Notes: a model not told the origin generated them from the letters alone. 56,985 nucleotides of DNA from Parcubacteria group bacterium GW2011_GWA2_38_13b (GCA_000992445.2 LBUF02000017.1:1-56985); one strand, 5' to 3'; positions 1,830 through 8,520 are shown, counted from the stretch's first letter. A program made the numbers and translations.

Positions 1830-1877
1830 GTTCGTATTTTAAATTCTATTTTCTAAATTTTAATTTTAGGTTATTGT

Positions 1878-1950
1878 GGGCCATTAGCTCATTTGGTAGA
1901 GCGCTTCCATGGCATGGAAGAGGCGACCGGTTCAAATCCGGTATGGTCCA
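1878..1950 (+). tRNA. tRNA-Ala(GGC)
   Basis: The acceptor GGGCCAT pairs with ATGGTCC. The anticodon arm CTTCC-ATGGCAT-GGAAG has anticodon GGC, and the T-loop is TTCAAAT. No CCA is encoded. The 3' part of this gene (from 1920) is repeated at 5250 as a fragment. Confidence 0.95.
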
Positions 1951-1959
1951 TTGCTTTAC

Positions 1960-2033
1960 GGGCGTATAGCTCAGTTGGTTAGAGCGCTTCGTTGACATCG
2001 AAGAGGTCTCCCGTTCGAGTCGGGATACGCCCA
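1960..2033 (+). tRNA. tRNA-Val(GAC), left copy
   Basis: The acceptor GGGCGTA pairs with TACGCCC. The anticodon arm CTTCG-TTGACAT-CGAAG gives GAC, and the T-arm is CCCGT-TCGAGT-style. Discriminator A is present with no CCA. An identical gene lies at 5290. Confidence 0.95.
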
Positions 2034-2055
2034 TAAAAAGAAAATATGGTCATAG

Positions 2056-2141
2056 TCCCGACATTCCGATTTTCGCCCGAGGCGAAACATCGGAAGTCGG
2101 GATCCCGATTCCCGCCCCGCCTTTGGCGGGGGACATCGGGA
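2056..2141. repeat. Paired-hairpin REP-like element, copy A
   Basis: There are two adjacent hairpins. 2056-2102 folds as TCCCGAC/GTCGGGA, TTCCGAT/ATCGGAA and TCGCC/GGCGA; 2103-2141 folds as TCCCGAT/ATCGGGA with an inner CCCGCC/GGCGGG. Both hairpins have TCCCGA...TCGGGA feet. The element is preceded directly by ATAG and followed directly by CTCAGTGG of a tRNA D-arm. This layout resembles the GTAG/GGAG-footed REP units mobilised by RAYT transposases. Confidence 0.8.
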
Positions 2142-2203
2142 CTCAGTGGCAGAGTGCTTCCTTGACACGGAAGAGGCCACAGGTTCAATCCCTGTATCAC
2201 CCA
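2142..2203 (+). pseudogene. tRNA-Val(GAC) lacking its 5' acceptor strand
   Basis: From CTCAGTGG onward there is a normal D-arm, an anticodon arm (loop TTGACAC, anticodon GAC), a T-arm and the 3' acceptor strand ATCACCC plus A. The matching 5' strand GGGTGAT is missing; the hairpin element and an unrelated flank lie there instead. The acceptor stem cannot form, so this is probably inactive. In the right-hand copy, conserved U33 has become C. Confidence 0.75.
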
Positions 2204-2213
2204 CTAAATTACT

Positions 2214-2238
2214 ATACAGGAGAACAGTTCTCCTGTAT
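2214..2238. repeat. Perfect palindrome at the left edge of the RAYT unit
   Basis: A 25-nt palindrome has 12-nt arms around a central A and the core GGAGAACAGTTCTCC. The same core occurs inside the transposase gene (2443-2457) and at its 3' end (2963-2977), and as a half-copy at 30098-30110. It probably marks the end of the mobile unit. Confidence 0.8.
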
Positions 2239-2253
2239 CCTTTGACTTAATTT

Positions 2254-2961
2254 ATGCCCATTAAGCGTCCACAACTAATTAATAATGAAATTTATCATAT
2301 TGTTGTTCGGGGAGTTAGTGATCAACCGATTTTCAAAAACAACGATGACCGTTATCGGGTAATTTTTTCTCTTTATGAATTTAATACAGTTGCCCCAATT
2401 GAAATTAGCGTACAAAGAAAAAAGCGCAGTATTAAAAATAAAGGAGAACAGTTCTCCGATAAACGGATATTGTTAGTGGAAATTTTAGCGTTTTGCTTTA
2501 TGCCAAATCATATTCATTTGCTTTTAAGGCAATTGCGGGACAATGGGATAACTCAATTTATGCGAAAATTCGGAGCTGGTTACGCAACTTATTTTAATAA
2601 AAAATATACCCGTAATGGTCATTTATTTCAAGGCAGATTTAAGGCGATTCGCATTACAACCGATAGGCAATTAAAAACGGTTTTTGTTTATATTCATACT
2701 AACCCAGTTGCTTTGATTGAAGCGGATTGGAAAAAGGGAGGGATTAAAAATTCCAATAAAGCAATTGAATTTTTAGAAAATTATAAATGGTCAAGTTATC
2801 AGGATTATATTGGTCAAGATAATTTTTCATCAGTTACTAAAAGAGATTTTCTTTTAGAGGTAATGGGCGGAAAGCGAGGTTGCCAAGGATTTTTAAACGA
2901 TCGGGTTGAATACAAAGGAGAGAATAATTATAATTATTTTAGCGATATAGAATTAGAATAA
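2254..2961 (+). CDS. REP-associated tyrosine transposase (Y1/IS200-like, RAYT)
   Basis: This is a 235-residue HUH-type single-strand transposase. The metal-binding motif is PNHIHLLL (about residues 88-95), and the catalytic tyrosine lies in the helix GAGYATYFNKKY about 35 residues later, followed by the usual GHLFQGRFKAI segment. Family members cut and rejoin single-stranded DNA at hairpins with GTAG or GGAG feet. Palindromes with a GGAGAAC arm flank the gene on both sides, and one copy inside the gene encodes KGEQFS. The gene sits between a tRNA cluster carrying hairpin elements and the tail of an interrupted HTH gene. The frame is intact, so it may be active. Confidence 0.9.
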   Translation: MPIKRPQLINNEIYHIVVRGVSDQPIFKNNDDRYRVIFSLYEFNTVAPIEISVQRKKRSIKNKGEQFSDKRILLVEILAFCFMPNHIHLLLRQLRDNGITQFMRKFGAGYATYFNKKYTRNGHLFQGRFKAIRITTDRQLKTVFVYIHTNPVALIEADWKKGGIKNSNKAIEFLENYKWSSYQDYIGQDNFSSVTKRDFLLEVMGGKRGCQGFLNDRVEYKGENNYNYFSDIELE

Positions 2962-2988
2962 AGGAGAACAGTTCTCCTTTATTCTAAT
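2952..2988. repeat. Perfect palindrome at the right edge of the RAYT unit
   Basis: Eighteen-nt arms surround a central A at 2970, with core GGAGAACAGTTCTCC. It overlaps the transposase stop codon and may serve both as an element end and as a transcription stop. Confidence 0.8.
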
Positions 2989-3060
2989 AATTCAACGCTT
3001 GATACATTTAAGAAAATTGCGAAAGCACTTGATGTTAGCGTTGATGATTTAATAAGTTAA
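2986..3060 (+). pseudogene. C-terminal remnant of an XRE-family HTH regulator
   Basis: The frame encodes NNSTLDTFKKIAKALDVSV and ends DDLIS before a TAA. This matches the final helices of an XRE-type DNA-binding domain. No start codon is present, and the preceding sequence is the palindrome that ends the RAYT unit, so the rest of the gene was lost, probably when the unit inserted. Confidence 0.65.
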
Positions 3061-3061
3061 A

Positions 3062-4051
3062 ATGTTTAATTTTTTTCAAAATATTTTTGATAAAGTCATA
3101 TCACTTGTGGCAAGTGTGATTATTGCTGTTGGCTTAGTTTCTGCACCAACACTAGAAATAATAGATCAATCTTTACGACCAGAGAAATACGGAGAAGAAA
3201 TTATTTTGGAAACTAAACAAAATGAATTAGAATCCGAAAAACAACTCGAGGAAAAAATTAAGCAAGCTGGTATAACAGAAGAAAATAGGAAAGCCGAAGA
3301 AGAAAAAATCAAAAAACAGATAGACGCTAAAGAAACCCAGAGGCAAGAAGAATTAAAAAAGCAAGCAGAATTAGAACAAGAACTCAAAGATGTTCTTAAC
3401 GATTCGAATCTTACAGAAATCCAACAAAAAGAACCGCAACAGCAACCTCGTTTAATTCTTTTTGAAGATAATTTTGGCAATGTTTACGCAGAAGAAAAAG
3501 ACTTCGTTAGAAATGCTGCAGAGCCGTTTAACAATGGCTTCGGTGCTTCTTACACTCCGTTGTGCATGCAAGATTCCGATGTAACGAAAGATTGCCAGCC
3601 TGAAATTATAAACTGGGTGAATAATCGTTCTATTGAAATTGGAAAAACACTCAACATTATTTTAGATAGCTTTGATGCAAACAGTGATAGTGTTTTTTAT
3701 TATATTTCTTACGGTAGCCGAAAAGATTGGGGCTATGGCACAATGAGAATATTACAATCATGGAAAGCCAATAACGTTTCCAGTATTCCAATAACCGAGC
3801 AACTTTATGAAGAGACTTTGTTTGATAATCTTAGCTGGGGTAGTCACTACTTCGACTCATCTACGCGGCAACATTATGATAAAAAAGTTAAATTAAATAA
3901 TGCGGGCGAATTAAATATAAATCTTTGTTTTAACGAAAAACCTGAACGAATGGAACGTGGTGAGCAATTTCCAGATGGTTGTATACTTTTTAAATATTTT
4001 ATTTTGAAACCCGCATATTCTAATTTAACAACTTCAACACAACCACAATAA
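3062..4051 (+). CDS. Exported or membrane-anchored coiled-coil protein of unknown function
   Basis: This 329-residue protein has an N-terminal hydrophobic segment (about residues 12-30, VISLVASVIIAVGLVSA) that should act as a signal anchor. A strongly charged coiled coil rich in Glu, Lys and Gln follows (about residues 45-125). The C-terminal half (from about residue 150) is globular, with Trp, Tyr and four scattered Cys, and has no recognised motif. It lies inside the 3-kb insert bounded by direct repeats, just after the HTH remnant, and is followed 6 nt later by the next gene. It could be a surface protein or part of a mobile element. No function is proposed. Confidence 0.6.
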   Translation: MFNFFQNIFDKVISLVASVIIAVGLVSAPTLEIIDQSLRPEKYGEEIILETKQNELESEKQLEEKIKQAGITEENRKAEEEKIKKQIDAKETQRQEELKKQAELEQELKDVLNDSNLTEIQQKEPQQQPRLILFEDNFGNVYAEEKDFVRNAAEPFNNGFGASYTPLCMQDSDVTKDCQPEIINWVNNRSIEIGKTLNIILDSFDANSDSVFYYISYGSRKDWGYGTMRILQSWKANNVSSIPITEQLYEETLFDNLSWGSHYFDSSTRQHYDKKVKLNNAGELNINLCFNEKPERMERGEQFPDGCILFKYFILKPAYSNLTTSTQPQ

Positions 4052-4057
4052 AAATTT

Positions 4058-4414
4058 ATGGATTACGCAGAATTACATCTTGAACACGCTGTTAAAAAAC
4101 TATGTATAGGAGAAAAAGATGTAACAAAAAGATTATTAGAGGTCTGGAATTCCGACCTCCATTTATTGGCAGATAAAAATAATTTTCATTTTAGAGATTA
4201 TCCCAAAGAAATAAAAGAAGATTGGAAATGGATTTATGGACAATTAACAAAATATAAACCGAGTGATAATTCAATAGAAAATAGACTTGGAATTGTAGGT
4301 TTTACATTAGGAAAAATTAAAAATTCAACAGGTTCAAAAATTGTGAAAAGAGTATATGAATTAAATGAAGAAGTAAAAAGATTTAATGAAGCGCACAGAA
4401 TTGATAAAAAATAA
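4058..4414 (+). CDS. Hypothetical helical protein
   Basis: This is a 118-residue soluble protein that appears mostly helical, with no motif I recognise. It starts 6 nt after the coiled-coil protein and ends 10 nt before the next gene, so the three genes are probably one transcript within the 3-kb insert. Features that may help a search are the block FHFRDYPKEIKEDWKWIYGQ and the C-terminal heptad-like VYELNEEVKRFNEAHR. Confidence 0.55.
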   Translation: MDYAELHLEHAVKKLCIGEKDVTKRLLEVWNSDLHLLADKNNFHFRDYPKEIKEDWKWIYGQLTKYKPSDNSIENRLGIVGFTLGKIKNSTGSKIVKRVYELNEEVKRFNEAHRIDKK

Positions 4415-4424
4415 TCTCCTAACT

Positions 4425-4889
4425 ATGACAAATAAAAATCAAAAACATGTAGAGGTGATAGTTGCTTCTACAATACCAGAAGCATGGGAAGTGGTGAAAA
4501 GAAATAATATCGCTACACAAAAAAAGAATTCGGCAGACGCAGATTATATCGTCTTTTTCCGTGTTCGTCTTAAAGATAAAAAATTAGGAAACTCGGCTAT
4601 CACGCATATTGCGAAAGTAAGGGATAGTGATAACAATGCATCGCTGAAAGACTTTTTTGAGAAAAATCCGGATTTGCTAAAATACTCTGAAAAACATGGG
4701 AAAGGGTGGGAAAGACAAGAATATCACAAAGAATATAAGCTCGAAGAATTAAAAGAGCTATCAGAACCAATTTTGTGTAGAAAAGGGAAGGGAGAGGGAA
4801 AAAGATGTCAGGTTAAACTCTATACAACGCGCGAGGAATTAAATAGAGTAAAATATTTGGGGGATATAAAAACAATTTCTCAACTATGA
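4425..4889 (+). CDS. Hypothetical protein, possibly PUA/EVE-like
   Basis: The ATG at 4425 is preferred (154 residues) because upstream starts overlap the previous gene. The stretch ADYIVFFRVRLKDKKLGNSA followed by ITHIAKV is reminiscent of the beta-barrel core of PUA/EVE-type nucleic-acid binding domains, but the match is by eye and weak. Two Cys (in ILCRKGKGEGKRCQVKL) lie in a basic C-terminal segment. It is the last gene of the insert; a GC-rich structured block follows it. The function is unknown. Confidence 0.5.
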   Translation: MTNKNQKHVEVIVASTIPEAWEVVKRNNIATQKKNSADADYIVFFRVRLKDKKLGNSAITHIAKVRDSDNNASLKDFFEKNPDLLKYSEKHGKGWERQEYHKEYKLEELKELSEPILCRKGKGEGKRCQVKLYTTREELNRVKYLGDIKTISQL

Positions 4890-5249
4890 GGCATGTTGAG
4901 ATGTAGAAATAATACTTTTTCTGTCCGCCCGATCCCCAAAGCGAGGACGGCTCGGCAGGAGGGGGTCGGGGGGGGATGCCGAGCCGTTCGAGCGTCAAAG
5001 CCCCGTCGCCTGTTCGTCAGAACAGAGGCCAGCAGAGAAGTTTTCTTTTTCCTTAATTGAAAAAGTTTTTAGGGGGGGGCGCGAAAGAAAAATAGTAAAG
5101 AAAACTTCTCTGCTGGGCACGCGAGCGGGGCGAGAGCGTATGATTTGGTTCAGAGCCACCACGCGCGCGGCGCGTGGTCAGTCGGGGTTCTGCTCAAAGA
5201 AAGTTCGGATTTCGTCCAACAGACACCATACATAAAATAAAAGGGCGGG
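4890..5249. other. GC-rich, hairpin-dense non-coding block
   Basis: This 360-nt stretch has no credible gene and is far richer in GC than its surroundings. It holds a hairpin at 4947-4987 (11-bp perfect stem, G-rich loop of runs of 5 and 8 G), a large stem at 5029-5116 and a hairpin at 5159-5177 (CCACGCGC/GCGCGTGG). It forms the right end of the insert, directly before the right-hand direct repeat. It could be a structured RNA gene, an element end or imported DNA. Confidence 0.6.
5029..5116. repeat. Inverted repeat with about 20-bp arms
   Basis: CCAGCAGAGAAGTTTTCTTT at the left is matched by its exact reverse complement at the right, enclosing about 47 nt that include a run of eight G. The arms could fold as an RNA hairpin or mark a small inserted unit. 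Confidence 0.8.
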
Positions 5250-5280
5250 GAGGCGACCGGTTCAAATCCGGTATGGTCCA
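5250..5280 (+). pseudogene. tRNA-Ala 3' fragment
   Basis: This is only the variable loop, T-arm and 3' acceptor strand of tRNA-Ala, identical to 1920-1950. The preceding bases are unrelated. It is the left edge of the second direct-repeat copy. Confidence 0.9.
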
Positions 5281-5289
5281 TTGCTTTAC

Positions 5290-5363
5290 GGGCGTATAGC
5301 TCAGTTGGTTAGAGCGCTTCGTTGACATCGAAGAGGTCTCCCGTTCGAGTCGGGATACGCCCA
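5290..5363 (+). tRNA. tRNA-Val(GAC), right copy
   Basis: It is identical to the tRNA at 1960-2033, with all arms intact and no CCA encoded. Confidence 0.95.
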
Positions 5364-5385
5364 TAAAAAGAAAATATGGTCATAG

Positions 5386-5471
5386 TCCCGACATTCCGAT
5401 TTTCGCCCGAGGCGAAACATCGGAAGTCGGGATCCCGATTCCCGCCCCGCCTTTGGCGGGGGACATCGGGA
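5386..5471. repeat. Paired-hairpin REP-like element, copy B
   Basis: It is identical to copy A because it lies in the direct repeat. It is preceded by ATAG and followed by CTCAGTGG. Confidence 0.8.
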
Positions 5472-5533
5472 CTCAGTGGCAGAGTGCTTCCTCGACACGG
5501 AAGAGGCCACAGGTTCAATCCCTGTATCACCCA
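5472..5533 (+). pseudogene. 5'-less tRNA-Val with a mutated anticodon loop
   Basis: This is the same fragment as 2142-2203, but the loop reads TCGACAC, so the near-universal U33 is replaced by C at 5493. This supports loss of function. Confidence 0.8.
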
Positions 5534-5618
5534 CTAAAATAAAAAAATCAATATAACATCCTTATAAACCCACTTGCCCGCTTCTAAAGGGAGATTGGTG
5601 GTATGTTGTGTAATGTAT

Positions 5619-6381
5619 ATGAAATTGAATATAGTTTACGAAGACGAAGACATTTTAGTCATTAACAAGCCGGCCGGATTGGTTGTTCATAAAGGAATAA
5701 AAACCGAAACAACATTGGCGGATTTGCTCGTTGAACATTACCCGGAAATTATAAATGTCGGCGATGACAAAATGAGGCCCGGGATTGTGCATCGTTTGGA
5801 TAAAGACACATCCGGTTTAAATGGTGGTCGCTAAAAATAACGCGGCCTTTGATTTTTTAAAAGAGCAGTTTAAGAATCGCCGGATTGAAAAGAAATACAC
5901 CGTGTTGGTTTTGGGGCGCGTGGAAAATCAAAGAGGCAGAATTGACAGTAAAATAGGACGATTGGGCGATAAGCAGATAGTTGTAAATCCCAGCCCAAGG
6001 CTGGTCAGCCTCGGGCTGAAAAAATCCCAATTCAATGTTAATTCATTTCGGACGGGAAAATTCAAAATAGACAAGTATAAAGAAGCGGTTACGGAATATA
6101 AAATATTAAAATATTTGGGCGATTATACTTTATGCGAAGTGAAACCGAAAACAGGCAGAATGCACCAAATAAGAGTTCATTTTAAGTCAATTGGCCATTC
6201 GGTGGCGGGGGATAAAAAATATTATTTCAAGAAACAAAAAAACGCGCTGATTTTTCCAAGGCAATTTTTGCACGCAAGTTATTTAAGTTTCAGTTTGCCA
6301 AACGGGAGTAGAATGGCGTTTGAAGCGGATTTGCCGGAGGACTTGCAAAAAGTATTGATAATGCTTGAAAATAACGGTTAA
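5619..6381 (+). pseudogene. RluA-family 23S rRNA pseudouridine synthase, frameshifted
   Basis: The first frame starts at ATG 5619 (MKLNIVYEDEDILVINKPAG) and carries the catalytic motif HRLDKDTSGL. It then shifts: one extra A in the AAA run at about 5819-5821 moves the reading to the frame ending at 6381, which continues VVAKNNAAFDFLKEQF and includes the RluA block KPKTGRMHQIRVHF. Removing one base restores a full-length enzyme. About 30 residues (NPSPRLVSLGLKKSQ onward) are additional to the family pattern and come from a GC-rich repeat inside the gene. It could be a true pseudogene, a sequencing error or a recoded gene. Confidence 0.8.
5991..6023. repeat. REP-like repeat inside the RluA gene
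   Basis: The core CAGCCCAAGGCTGGTC is followed by AGCCTCGGGCTGAAAAAA. A near copy lies in the intergenic region at about 53060-53093. In the gene it is read as NPSPRLVSLGLKKS. Confidence 0.7.
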
Positions 6382-7224: not shown

Positions 7225-7296
7225 GCGCGCTTAGCTCAGTGGTAGAGCGACTCGTTTACACCGAGTAGGTCGTAGGTTCGATCCCTTCAGCGCGCA
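7225..7296 (+). tRNA. tRNA-Val(TAC)
   Basis: The acceptor GCGCGCT pairs with AGCGCGC. The anticodon arm ACTCG-TTTACAC-CGAGT gives TAC, and the T-loop is TTCGATC. One T-stem mismatch is present. No CCA is encoded. Confidence 0.93.
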
Positions 7297-7327
7297 CAAA
7301 ATCGGGAATTTTTAAAAATAAAATAAA

Positions 7328-7681
7328 ATGTTAATTTGGACGGTTTATATTATTAAAAGTCAAAAATGGGATAAATATTACACGGGTGTAACTGATAATC
7401 TAGAAAAAAGATTATACGAACACAATAATGGTTTATCGTCTTATACGAAAGGTGGTGGAAAATGGGCATTAAAGCATTTTGAAGAATTTGATAGTATAAG
7501 GGATGCTTATAAGAGAGAAAAATTTATAAAAAATAAGAAAAGCAGGAAAATAATTGGAAAGATTATAGGGAGTCCTAATATTGAGTTAAAGAAATTGTGC
7601 CGGAGTAGCTCAGTGGTAGAGCGCAGCCCTGAAAAGGCTGGCGTGGACAGTTCGATTCTGTCCTCCGGCATAAAAATATGA
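7328..7681 (+). CDS. GIY-YIG endonuclease domain protein reading into tRNA-Phe
   Basis: This small single-domain GIY-YIG family protein has VYIIKSQKWDKYYTGVTDNL (the Y..Y-T-G variant of the motif), then EKRLYEHNNG and a YKREKFIKNKKSRK segment, as in the UPF0213/YhbQ type. Such proteins are putative nucleases of unclear role. The domain ends near residue 85. The last 30 or so residues are translated from tRNA-Phe (7599-7670) on the same strand, so the natural stop may have been lost. The frame ends only 11 nt after the tRNA. Expression must compete with tRNA processing. Confidence 0.75.
   Translation: MLIWTVYIIKSQKWDKYYTGVTDNLEKRLYEHNNGLSSYTKGGGKWALKHFEEFDSIRDAYKREKFIKNKKSRKIIGKIIGSPNIELKKLCRSSSVVERSPEKAGVDSSILSSGIKI
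7599..7670 (+). tRNA. tRNA-Phe(GAA)
   Basis: The acceptor GCCGGAG pairs with CTCCGGC. The anticodon arm CAGCC-CTGAAAA-GGCTG gives GAA, and the T-loop is TTCGATT. No CCA is encoded. It lies within the 3' part of the GIY-YIG reading frame. Confidence 0.95.
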
Positions 7682-7696
7682 TAGAAATGGTTGTAG

Positions 7697-7764
7697 TCCC
7701 GATGTTTTTGCCTTTGGCAAAAAATCGGGATCCCGATTCCCCGCCCGCGGCGGGGACATCGGGA
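7697..7764. repeat. Paired-hairpin REP-like element, copy D
   Basis: The hairpin at 7697-7730 is TCCCGAT/ATCGGGA with inner TTTTTGCC/GGCAAAAA. The hairpin at 7731-7764 is TCCCGAT/ATCGGGA with inner CCCCGCC/GGCGGGG. It is preceded directly by GTAG and followed directly by CTCAGTGG. Confidence 0.8.
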
Positions 7765-7826
7765 CTCAGTGGTAGAGCGCAGCCCTGAAAAGGCTGGCGT
7801 GGACAGTTCGATTCTGTCCTCCGGCA
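7765..7826 (+). pseudogene. tRNA-Phe(GAA) copy lacking its 5' acceptor and first D-arm bases
   Basis: This is identical to tRNA-Phe from CTCAGTGG to the 3' end. In the intact gene this segment is preceded by GCCGGAGTAG; here the same GTAG is separated from it by hairpin element D, and the acceptor 5' strand is gone. Confidence 0.85.
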
Positions 7827-7842
7827 TCATGGCCACATGCTG

Positions 7843-7870
7843 TTGACATATATCATATATGATATATACT
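7843..7870 (+). promoter_or_regulatory. Toxin-antitoxin promoter with palindromic operator
   Basis: TTGACA (7843-7848) and TATACT (7865-7870) are spaced by 16 nt. The perfect 20-nt palindrome ATATATCATATATGATATAT (7848-7867) covers the spacer, a natural site for the HTH antitoxin. The toxin ATG follows the -10 by only 4 nt. Confidence 0.75.
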
Positions 7871-7874
7871 GTTT

Positions 7875-8237
7875 ATGTCAGATTACAGGGTAAAATTTTA
7901 CAAAAATAGTGGTAATGGTAAAGAGCTTGTATTAGAATATATTGAAAATTTGGATTGTAAAAACAAAGCCAAAGTACTTAAATACATTGAATTTTTGAGG
8001 GGAAATAACGGATATCTGGAAGAACCGTACTCAAGGCACATTACTGGAAAAATTAGAGAATTGAGAATAAATTTTTCAAAAAACAAACATAGGATTTTCT
8101 ATTTTACTTTTATTGAGAAAACTATCATTTTATTGCATTCTTTTCTTAAAAAAACCAAAAAAACATCCAATGGAGAAATAAAAAAAGCGGTAAATAATTA
8201 TAACGATGCGATAAATAACCGCCATATATATGAATAA
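7875..8237 (+). CDS. higB: RelE/HigB-type toxin (phage Gp49-like)
   Basis: This 120-residue protein matches the HigB/Gp49-like branch of the RelE superfamily, whose members cleave ribosome-bound mRNA. It begins DYRVKFYKNSGNGKELVLEY and contains SRHITGKIRELRINFSKNKH and RIFYFTFIEKTIILLHSFLK, the usual central strand and the hydrophobic strand before the C-terminal helix. It overlaps the antitoxin gene by 8 nt, the toxin-first order typical of higBA. The promoter gives an almost leaderless message. The pair sits beside tRNA genes and hairpin elements, a common place for acquired toxin-antitoxin modules. Confidence 0.82.
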   Translation: MSDYRVKFYKNSGNGKELVLEYIENLDCKNKAKVLKYIEFLRGNNGYLEEPYSRHITGKIRELRINFSKNKHRIFYFTFIEKTIILLHSFLKKTKKTSNGEIKKAVNNYNDAINNRHIYE

Positions 8238-8520
8238 AATAAAAAAATCAACCGATTTTCAGAAATATTTGAAAAACCAGCTCAAAAATAAAAAATTGAA
8301 GCAATATTATAATGAATACGGCGAGCAATTAAAAATTGCTTACCAAATCATTTTATTGCGCAAGAAGGCGTTTATTACGCAGTCGGAATTGGCGAAGCGT
8401 ATCGGCACTACCCAAAGCAATATCGCCAGAATAGAGCACGGACAACAGAATTTTACTATTGGACTATTAGATAAAATAGCCAAAACATTCAAAAAAGAAT
8501 TGACTATTTCCATTCAATAG
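8230..8520 (+). CDS. higA: HigA-type XRE antitoxin
   Basis: This 96-residue DNA-binding antitoxin has an XRE helix-turn-helix at about residues 45-90 (TQSELAKRIGTTQSNIARIE is the recognition part) and an N-terminal helical region that would contact the toxin. It overlaps the toxin gene by 8 nt and is translationally coupled to it. It would repress the operon by binding the palindrome over the promoter. A weak hairpin follows the stop codon. Confidence 0.85.
   Translation: MNKIKKSTDFQKYLKNQLKNKKLKQYYNEYGEQLKIAYQIILLRKKAFITQSELAKRIGTTQSNIARIEHGQQNFTIGLLDKIAKTFKKELTISIQ

Follow-up and report, generated by a model that had tools for sequence, protein, structure and literature searches.

What is the insert that lies between two long direct repeats in a tRNA gene cluster of Parcubacteria group bacterium GW2011_GWA2_38_13b, and how did the repeats arise? 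The window, that is, the whole stretch of DNA analysed (56,985 nucleotides), is the entire contig C17 of a 21-contig, 875-kb metagenome-assembled genome. An earlier note had likened the insert to an island integrated at a tRNA. The association of mobile DNA with tRNA genes was upheld, whereas the role of the repeats as att sites was not: the identifiable element terminus (5225) stops 24 bp before the right repeat begins, and the element's relatives have terminal inverted repeats (TIRs) in place of long direct ones. Judged by its sequence, the insert is the damaged remnant of a little-known, class-wide mobile-element family that carries defence-type genes, often at tRNA gene ends.

The repeat pair and the sequence it encloses

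The repeats are 292 bp long at a spacing of 3330, and they differ only at T2163/C5493 and T2209/A5539; the single difference in 289 bp described in the earlier note is thus borne out, the full extent having two. The right copy begins within tRNA-Ala sequence, as had been claimed, at a point 32 nt before the 3′ end of that gene. Profile and fold evidence also recovered the contents listed in that note, namely a RAYT, an HTH remnant, three open reading frames (ORFs), and a GC-rich structured block (Table 1), and its prediction that recombination between the repeats would delete the insert and leave one complete tRNA set is true by construction. Its unease over the length of the repeats and the missing integrase was justified, since ORF and profile searches of the insert found no integrase gene among the ORFs between the repeats. 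When the repeat was used as a query against 55 class relatives, the matches listed beyond its own genome were to tRNAs only.

Table 1. Coordinates of features at the locus, with further copies of the palindromic element in the same genome (window positions unless a locus is named)
Feature	Position	Strand	Basis
tRNA-Ala(GGC), complete; left repeat begins within it	1877..1951	+	ARAGORN, Rfam
Left direct repeat: tRNA-Ala 3′ part, tRNA-Val(GAC), palindromic element, tRNA-Val-like gene	1920..2211	+	repeat comparison
tRNA-Val(GAC), left copy	1960..2033	+	ARAGORN, Rfam
Double-hairpin palindromic element, between TAG (2053-2055) and CTCAGTGG (2142-2149) of a tRNA D-arm	2056..2141	.	sequence, fold
tRNA-Val-like gene, D-arm to 3′ end; 5′ side displaced by palindromic element	2142..2204	+	ARAGORN, Rfam 44.3 bits
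Left RAYT-associated palindrome, ATACAGGAGAACAGTTCTCCTGTAT core	2207..2241	.	repeat and fold search
RAYT (Y1 transposase), 235 aa, HIH motif	2254..2961	+	profile searches
Right RAYT-associated palindrome	2949..2987	.	repeat search
C-terminal remnant of HTH-XRE gene (first cargo gene in intact relatives)	2986..3060	+	similarity to C19, C14; architecture of C1, L137
Cargo ORF1, 329 aa, hydrophobic N-terminus, no family	3062..4051	+	ORF and profile searches
Cargo ORF2, 118 aa, no family	4058..4414	+	ORF and profile searches
Cargo ORF3, 167 aa, sub-threshold RnlB_antitoxin match (E=0.025)	4386..4889	+	profile search
GC-rich structured terminus (TIR-type block); large hairpin arms 5029-5048 / 5097-5116	4905..5225	+	fold, alignment
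Terminal END motif TGTCTGTTGGACGAAATCCGAAC, reading inward from the element boundary	5203..5225	-	motif search
24-bp spacer from element end to right repeat; TAAAATAAAA also at end of/after right copy	5226..5249	.	alignment
Right direct repeat: truncated tRNA-Ala, intact tRNA-Val(GAC), palindromic element (5386-5471), tRNA-Val-like gene	5250..5541	+	ARAGORN, Rfam, repeat comparison
Palindromic-element copies in the same genome	2056-2141, 5386-5471, 7103-7182, 7697-7764; L050:746-826; L051:558-625		TAG/CTC setting

Each repeat contains an 86-nt double hairpin that parts TAG from CTCAGTGG in a tRNA D-arm. All six copies of this palindromic element in the genome (68-86 nt) have TAG on one side and CTC on the other, in the D-arm of a tRNA or in a tRNA relic. 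A search of the phylum yielded two more: one, in G408 (L168), again has the TAG|CTC setting, immediately upstream of tRNA-Ile in sequence that resembles a tRNA, and the other, in G556 (L167), has a setting other than TAG|CTC of a tRNA. Because both repeats carry the element, its insertion predates the duplication.

The three cargo ORFs obtained no usable family from PADLOC, NCBIfam, or PHROGs. Relatives of ORF3 were found at 29-31% only and in 2 of 384 genomes, at loci without END blocks. The HTH remnant that precedes these ORFs shares 76-79% DNA identity with two other HTH genes of the same genome.

The RAYT unit

The RAYT has a Y1_Tnp domain (PF01797, E=1.3e-10, above the cut-off; NCBIfam REP_Tyr_transpos, E=7.7e-12, below the cut-off of that model) with the HUH motif, which reads NHIHLLL in the translation, and it is flanked on both sides by cognate palindromes. 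In this it resembles the RAYT/REP systems (PMC2817692, PMC3733652), in which a REP-associated Y1 transposase lies between cognate palindromes. It differs from them in that the window RAYT and several class relatives have a third palindrome within the ORF (2431-2465 in the window; also in L031, L033, L034, L035, L038, L041, and L042), which matches both flanking palindromes in the window, L035, and L038. This suggests, on sequence comparison, that the internal copy is a conserved trait of RAYTs in the class. Unlike typical systems, too, no GTAG foot was seen by eye at the palindromes of the window, and a typical REP family would have more copies than this one, for which the genome shows one other clear match, at C3. 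The RAYT was also considered as the mover of the entire insert and was ruled out, because its cognate palindromes enclose the RAYT alone; RAYTs are thought to mobilise short palindromes, not 3-kb islands (PMC3733652, PMC8266576). In another genome (G008:C142, L031), a RAYT begins 65 nt past the 3′ end of a tRNA-Val(cac), as in the window.

The GC-rich block as an element terminus

The GC-rich block at the right of the insert is strongly structured (fold z=-6.9) and ends in the END motif, both of them features of the END family. The outermost END motif, TGTNTGNNGGACNAAATCCGAAC, was found in 35 of 286 class genomes at ≤2 mismatches, and a reversed control gave 0 throughout. Because the END pattern was partly derived from the window, its perfect match there carries no independent weight; independent support comes from the alignment of the block to termini in other genomes (96 bp at 78% in G038, E=2e-16; 80 bp at 82% in G003; 195 bp at 70% in G219). 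Counterparts also occur in the same genome, on C1, C2, C14, C16, and C21. A motif search of the window found this single END and no second, inverted terminus, such as is present at C1 and L135-L139.

A tRNA 3′ end lies within 200 bp on the outer side of a cargo END at 5 of 29 loci, and the proximity of a cargo END to a tRNA is by itself modest evidence. The window END resembles an Ala-type end, yet the element follows a tRNA-Val. At G228:C7 (L106), an END lies 50 nt past a tRNA-Val(cac).

Complete relatives of the element

Complete relatives of the insert consist of cargo operons (restriction-modification, HTH regulator) within terminal inverted repeats of 220-350 bp. The one in the same genome (L087, C1:36000-46000) is 5.7 kb long, has 340-bp TIRs of 100% identity, and carries a type II restriction-modification operon that begins with an HTH gene and includes a DUF6996/6997 restriction enzyme, two DNA methyltransferases, and an SDH-type protease gene. 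It adjoins tRNA-Gln and dnaX, 24 bp from the former, and the same place is occupied in G059 and G021 as well. Five inverted END pairs were inspected. They enclose complete elements of 1.9-9.6 kb, with TIRs that reach 350 bp at 100% identity; four TIR pairs are 224-350 bp at 98-100% identity and one is 339 bp at 86%. No transposase was noticed in the cargo of these elements, and protein profile searches of the window insert and the C1 element found no TnsABC-type transposition genes.

The intact order is TIR, HTH gene, further genes, TIR. The window retains the HTH C-terminus, three ORFs, and the END block in that order, which is half of the C1 architecture (compare also L137), and the RAYT occupies the place expected for the left terminus and the start of the HTH gene. 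The window remnant is non-autonomous and probably immobile.

A serine recombinase at tRNA 3′ ends

In several complete relatives, one terminus is adjoined by a large serine recombinase gene composed of Resolvase, Recombinase, and zinc-ribbon domains, and this recombinase family is present in 217 of 384 class genomes. Many END-family loci in other genomes have no serine recombinase nearby, and the genome studied here lacks a PF00239 protein, with no resolvase-type recombinase in either the insert or the genome. At seven loci that were extended past the recombinase, the gene runs toward a tRNA whose 3′ end faces it, and inverted repeats bounding the module reach the terminal NNCCA of the tRNA at six of the seven; at the remaining locus (L162), the repeat lies ~140 bp from the called tRNA. 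Among the 30 best recombinase loci, some of them too short to judge, the module abuts a tRNA 3′ end in 19, and 18 of these 19 have inverted repeats of 66-137 bp. In all but one of these 18, the repeats end no more than a few bases from the tRNA terminus.

The type of END appears to follow the type of tRNA, as read by eye at ~13 loci: TGTCTCC occurs with Gln, TGTTTG with Ala, TGTCTTT or similar with Ser, and CGTTTG with Leu, Arg, and Val. We infer that the mobility of the family is driven by the serine recombinase. It is an evenly balanced proposition that genomes of the Ca. Paceibacterota type harbour a widespread and apparently undescribed modular system, in which a large serine recombinase module would sit exactly at tRNA 3′ ends, with inverted repeats running into NNCCA, and separate long-TIR cargo modules would carry an END matched to the type of target tRNA, the window insert being a fossil cargo module. 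A literature search of incomplete coverage found no relevant description of serine recombinases in this bacterial group.

Comparison with known mobile elements

The insert shares with tyrosine-integrase islands at tRNAs its location, a truncated tRNA copy, direct repeats, and accessory cargo. Unlike such islands, it has no integrase, and its repeat is far too long, is not at the element end, and runs through two more tRNAs; the END family, moreover, has inverted termini and a serine recombinase. With integrative elements of large serine recombinases (PMC10083194), the family has in common a protein with Resolvase, Recombinase, and zinc-ribbon domains beside the junctions, and no clear target duplication was seen. 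In the class studied here, in contrast, the recombinase module is itself enclosed by inverted repeats of 66-137 bp reaching into the NNCCA of the tRNA, the cargo modules are separate and have structured TIRs of 220-350 bp, and the window remnant lacks a recombinase. Tn7-like and other DDE cargo transposons (PMC8649781) likewise carry defence-type cargo, insert near tRNAs or terminators, and have ends that begin with TGT and contain repeated GGACAAAATCC-like motifs, whereas the END-family cargo examined has no noticed transposase, no evident target-site duplication, and very long, near-identical TIRs.

The odd repeat-framed insert becomes a recognisable relic of a class-wide family that places accessory genes, often of the defence type, at the ends of tRNAs in bacteria with reduced genomes. 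Should the recombinase indeed work on tRNA 3′ termini by way of modules bounded by inverted repeats, it would represent an uncommon form of serine recombination and a way of acquiring genes in bacteria about whose mobile elements little is known. The locus in the window, being degraded, carries modest weight as an example, and it is the family that is of interest.

Origin of the repeats

The element lies between the end of the tRNA-Val-like gene (3′ end at 2204) and position 5225. The right repeat, which starts 24 bp further on, therefore falls outside the element, and the repeats accordingly go back, in all probability, to a partial tandem duplication of tRNA genes that came before the insertion. 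The simplest reading is a tandem duplication with subsequent insertion into the spacer, because partial tRNA duplications occur elsewhere in the genome, at tRNA-Phe (7598-7671/7765-7827, 63 nt identical) and tRNA-Lys. We lean slightly toward a layered scar of duplication, cargo-module insertion, and RAYT entry with loss of the left end. In this history, a segment of the tRNA array (the tRNA-Ala 3′ part, tRNA-Val, and the palindrome-interrupted tRNA-Val) would have been partly duplicated in tandem; a cargo module of the tRNA-associated family would then have inserted into the short spacer downstream of the first copy; and a RAYT unit would have entered the HTH gene, the start of which was lost along with the left terminus. 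The remnant, and one repeat copy with it, could be removed by homologous recombination between the repeats on either side. Both the order of events and tandem duplication as the source of the repeats are inferred from this arrangement; direct evidence dating the duplication before the insertion was not found, the TAAAATAAAA sequence common to the spacer and the end of the right copy being a weak, low-complexity match.

An rplS-based scan of genome collections returned one relative, a distant one (L155, Ca. Paceibacterota; 67% in L19), in which the same gene order, tRNA-Val(gac), rplS, tRNA-Leu(gag), tRNA-Val(tac), tRNA-Phe, and tRNA-Gly, is compact, the spacers being short and free of any insert, palindrome, or repeat. 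Since it is distant and has no tRNA-Ala at this place, it shows an undisturbed arrangement, not a direct ancestor.

Two roles for the repeats were rejected. A long att site of an island does not agree with the element end (5225) and the repeat boundary (5250), which do not coincide, and a target-site duplication would be far too long in a family that shows no clear duplication. Integration at tRNA-Ala of an island or circle carrying a tRNA segment, by a lost tyrosine integrase or by single-crossover homologous recombination, is unlikely. The left repeat would then be element-borne and restore tRNA-Ala, and the right would be the displaced native copy. The geometry is classical, with a complete tRNA on the left, a tRNA 3′ fragment on the right, and near-identical repeats, and islands can carry tRNA genes; but the 292-bp repeat spans two further tRNA genes, the insert has no integrase, the repeat begins 24 bp beyond the recognisable element end, and in relatives of the element the repeats are inverted instead of direct.

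An artefact of assembly or strain mixture, in which a repeat that is single in each genome joined populations with and without the element, is distinctly improbable. Although the contig is metagenome-assembled, a near-identical 292-bp pair can be joined wrongly, and the two SNPs may reflect strain variation, both junctions are unique in sequence and need physical support, and the same assembly resolves perfect 340-bp inverted repeats 5 kb apart at C1. That the insert is a currently mobile, excisable element kept by its own recombination functions is very improbable: the left terminus and the HTH start are missing, neither insert nor genome has a recombinase, and RAYTs are credited with moving short palindromes (PMC3733652, PMC8266576), against which stand the near identity of the repeats and the intact RAYT ORF with its HIH motif.

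Other disturbances around the tRNA genes

The tRNA region at 7225-8520 is interrupted further, by a GIY-YIG-like ORF (7328-7681) that overlaps tRNA-Phe, by the partial identical tRNA-Phe copy (7765-7827), and by a RelE-like/HTH pair (7875-8520). Elsewhere in the genome, 5′ tRNA halves cut at the anticodon region lie just upstream of intact tRNAs (L049:657-760 on C2; L050 near 700-830) and are relics of earlier insertions or duplications. To the right of the repeats, the pseudouridine synthase gene (5574-6381) is split into two ORFs whose frames shift near 5815-5820, which is a frameshift or a sequencing error. On C2 (~3400-3780; L083/L088), a degenerate END block adjoins a Z1/MvaI-BcnI restriction locus and is accompanied by a short remnant of the repeat that belongs to the Ala-type recombinase module, CCACCATATTGAATTAGTCGCC.
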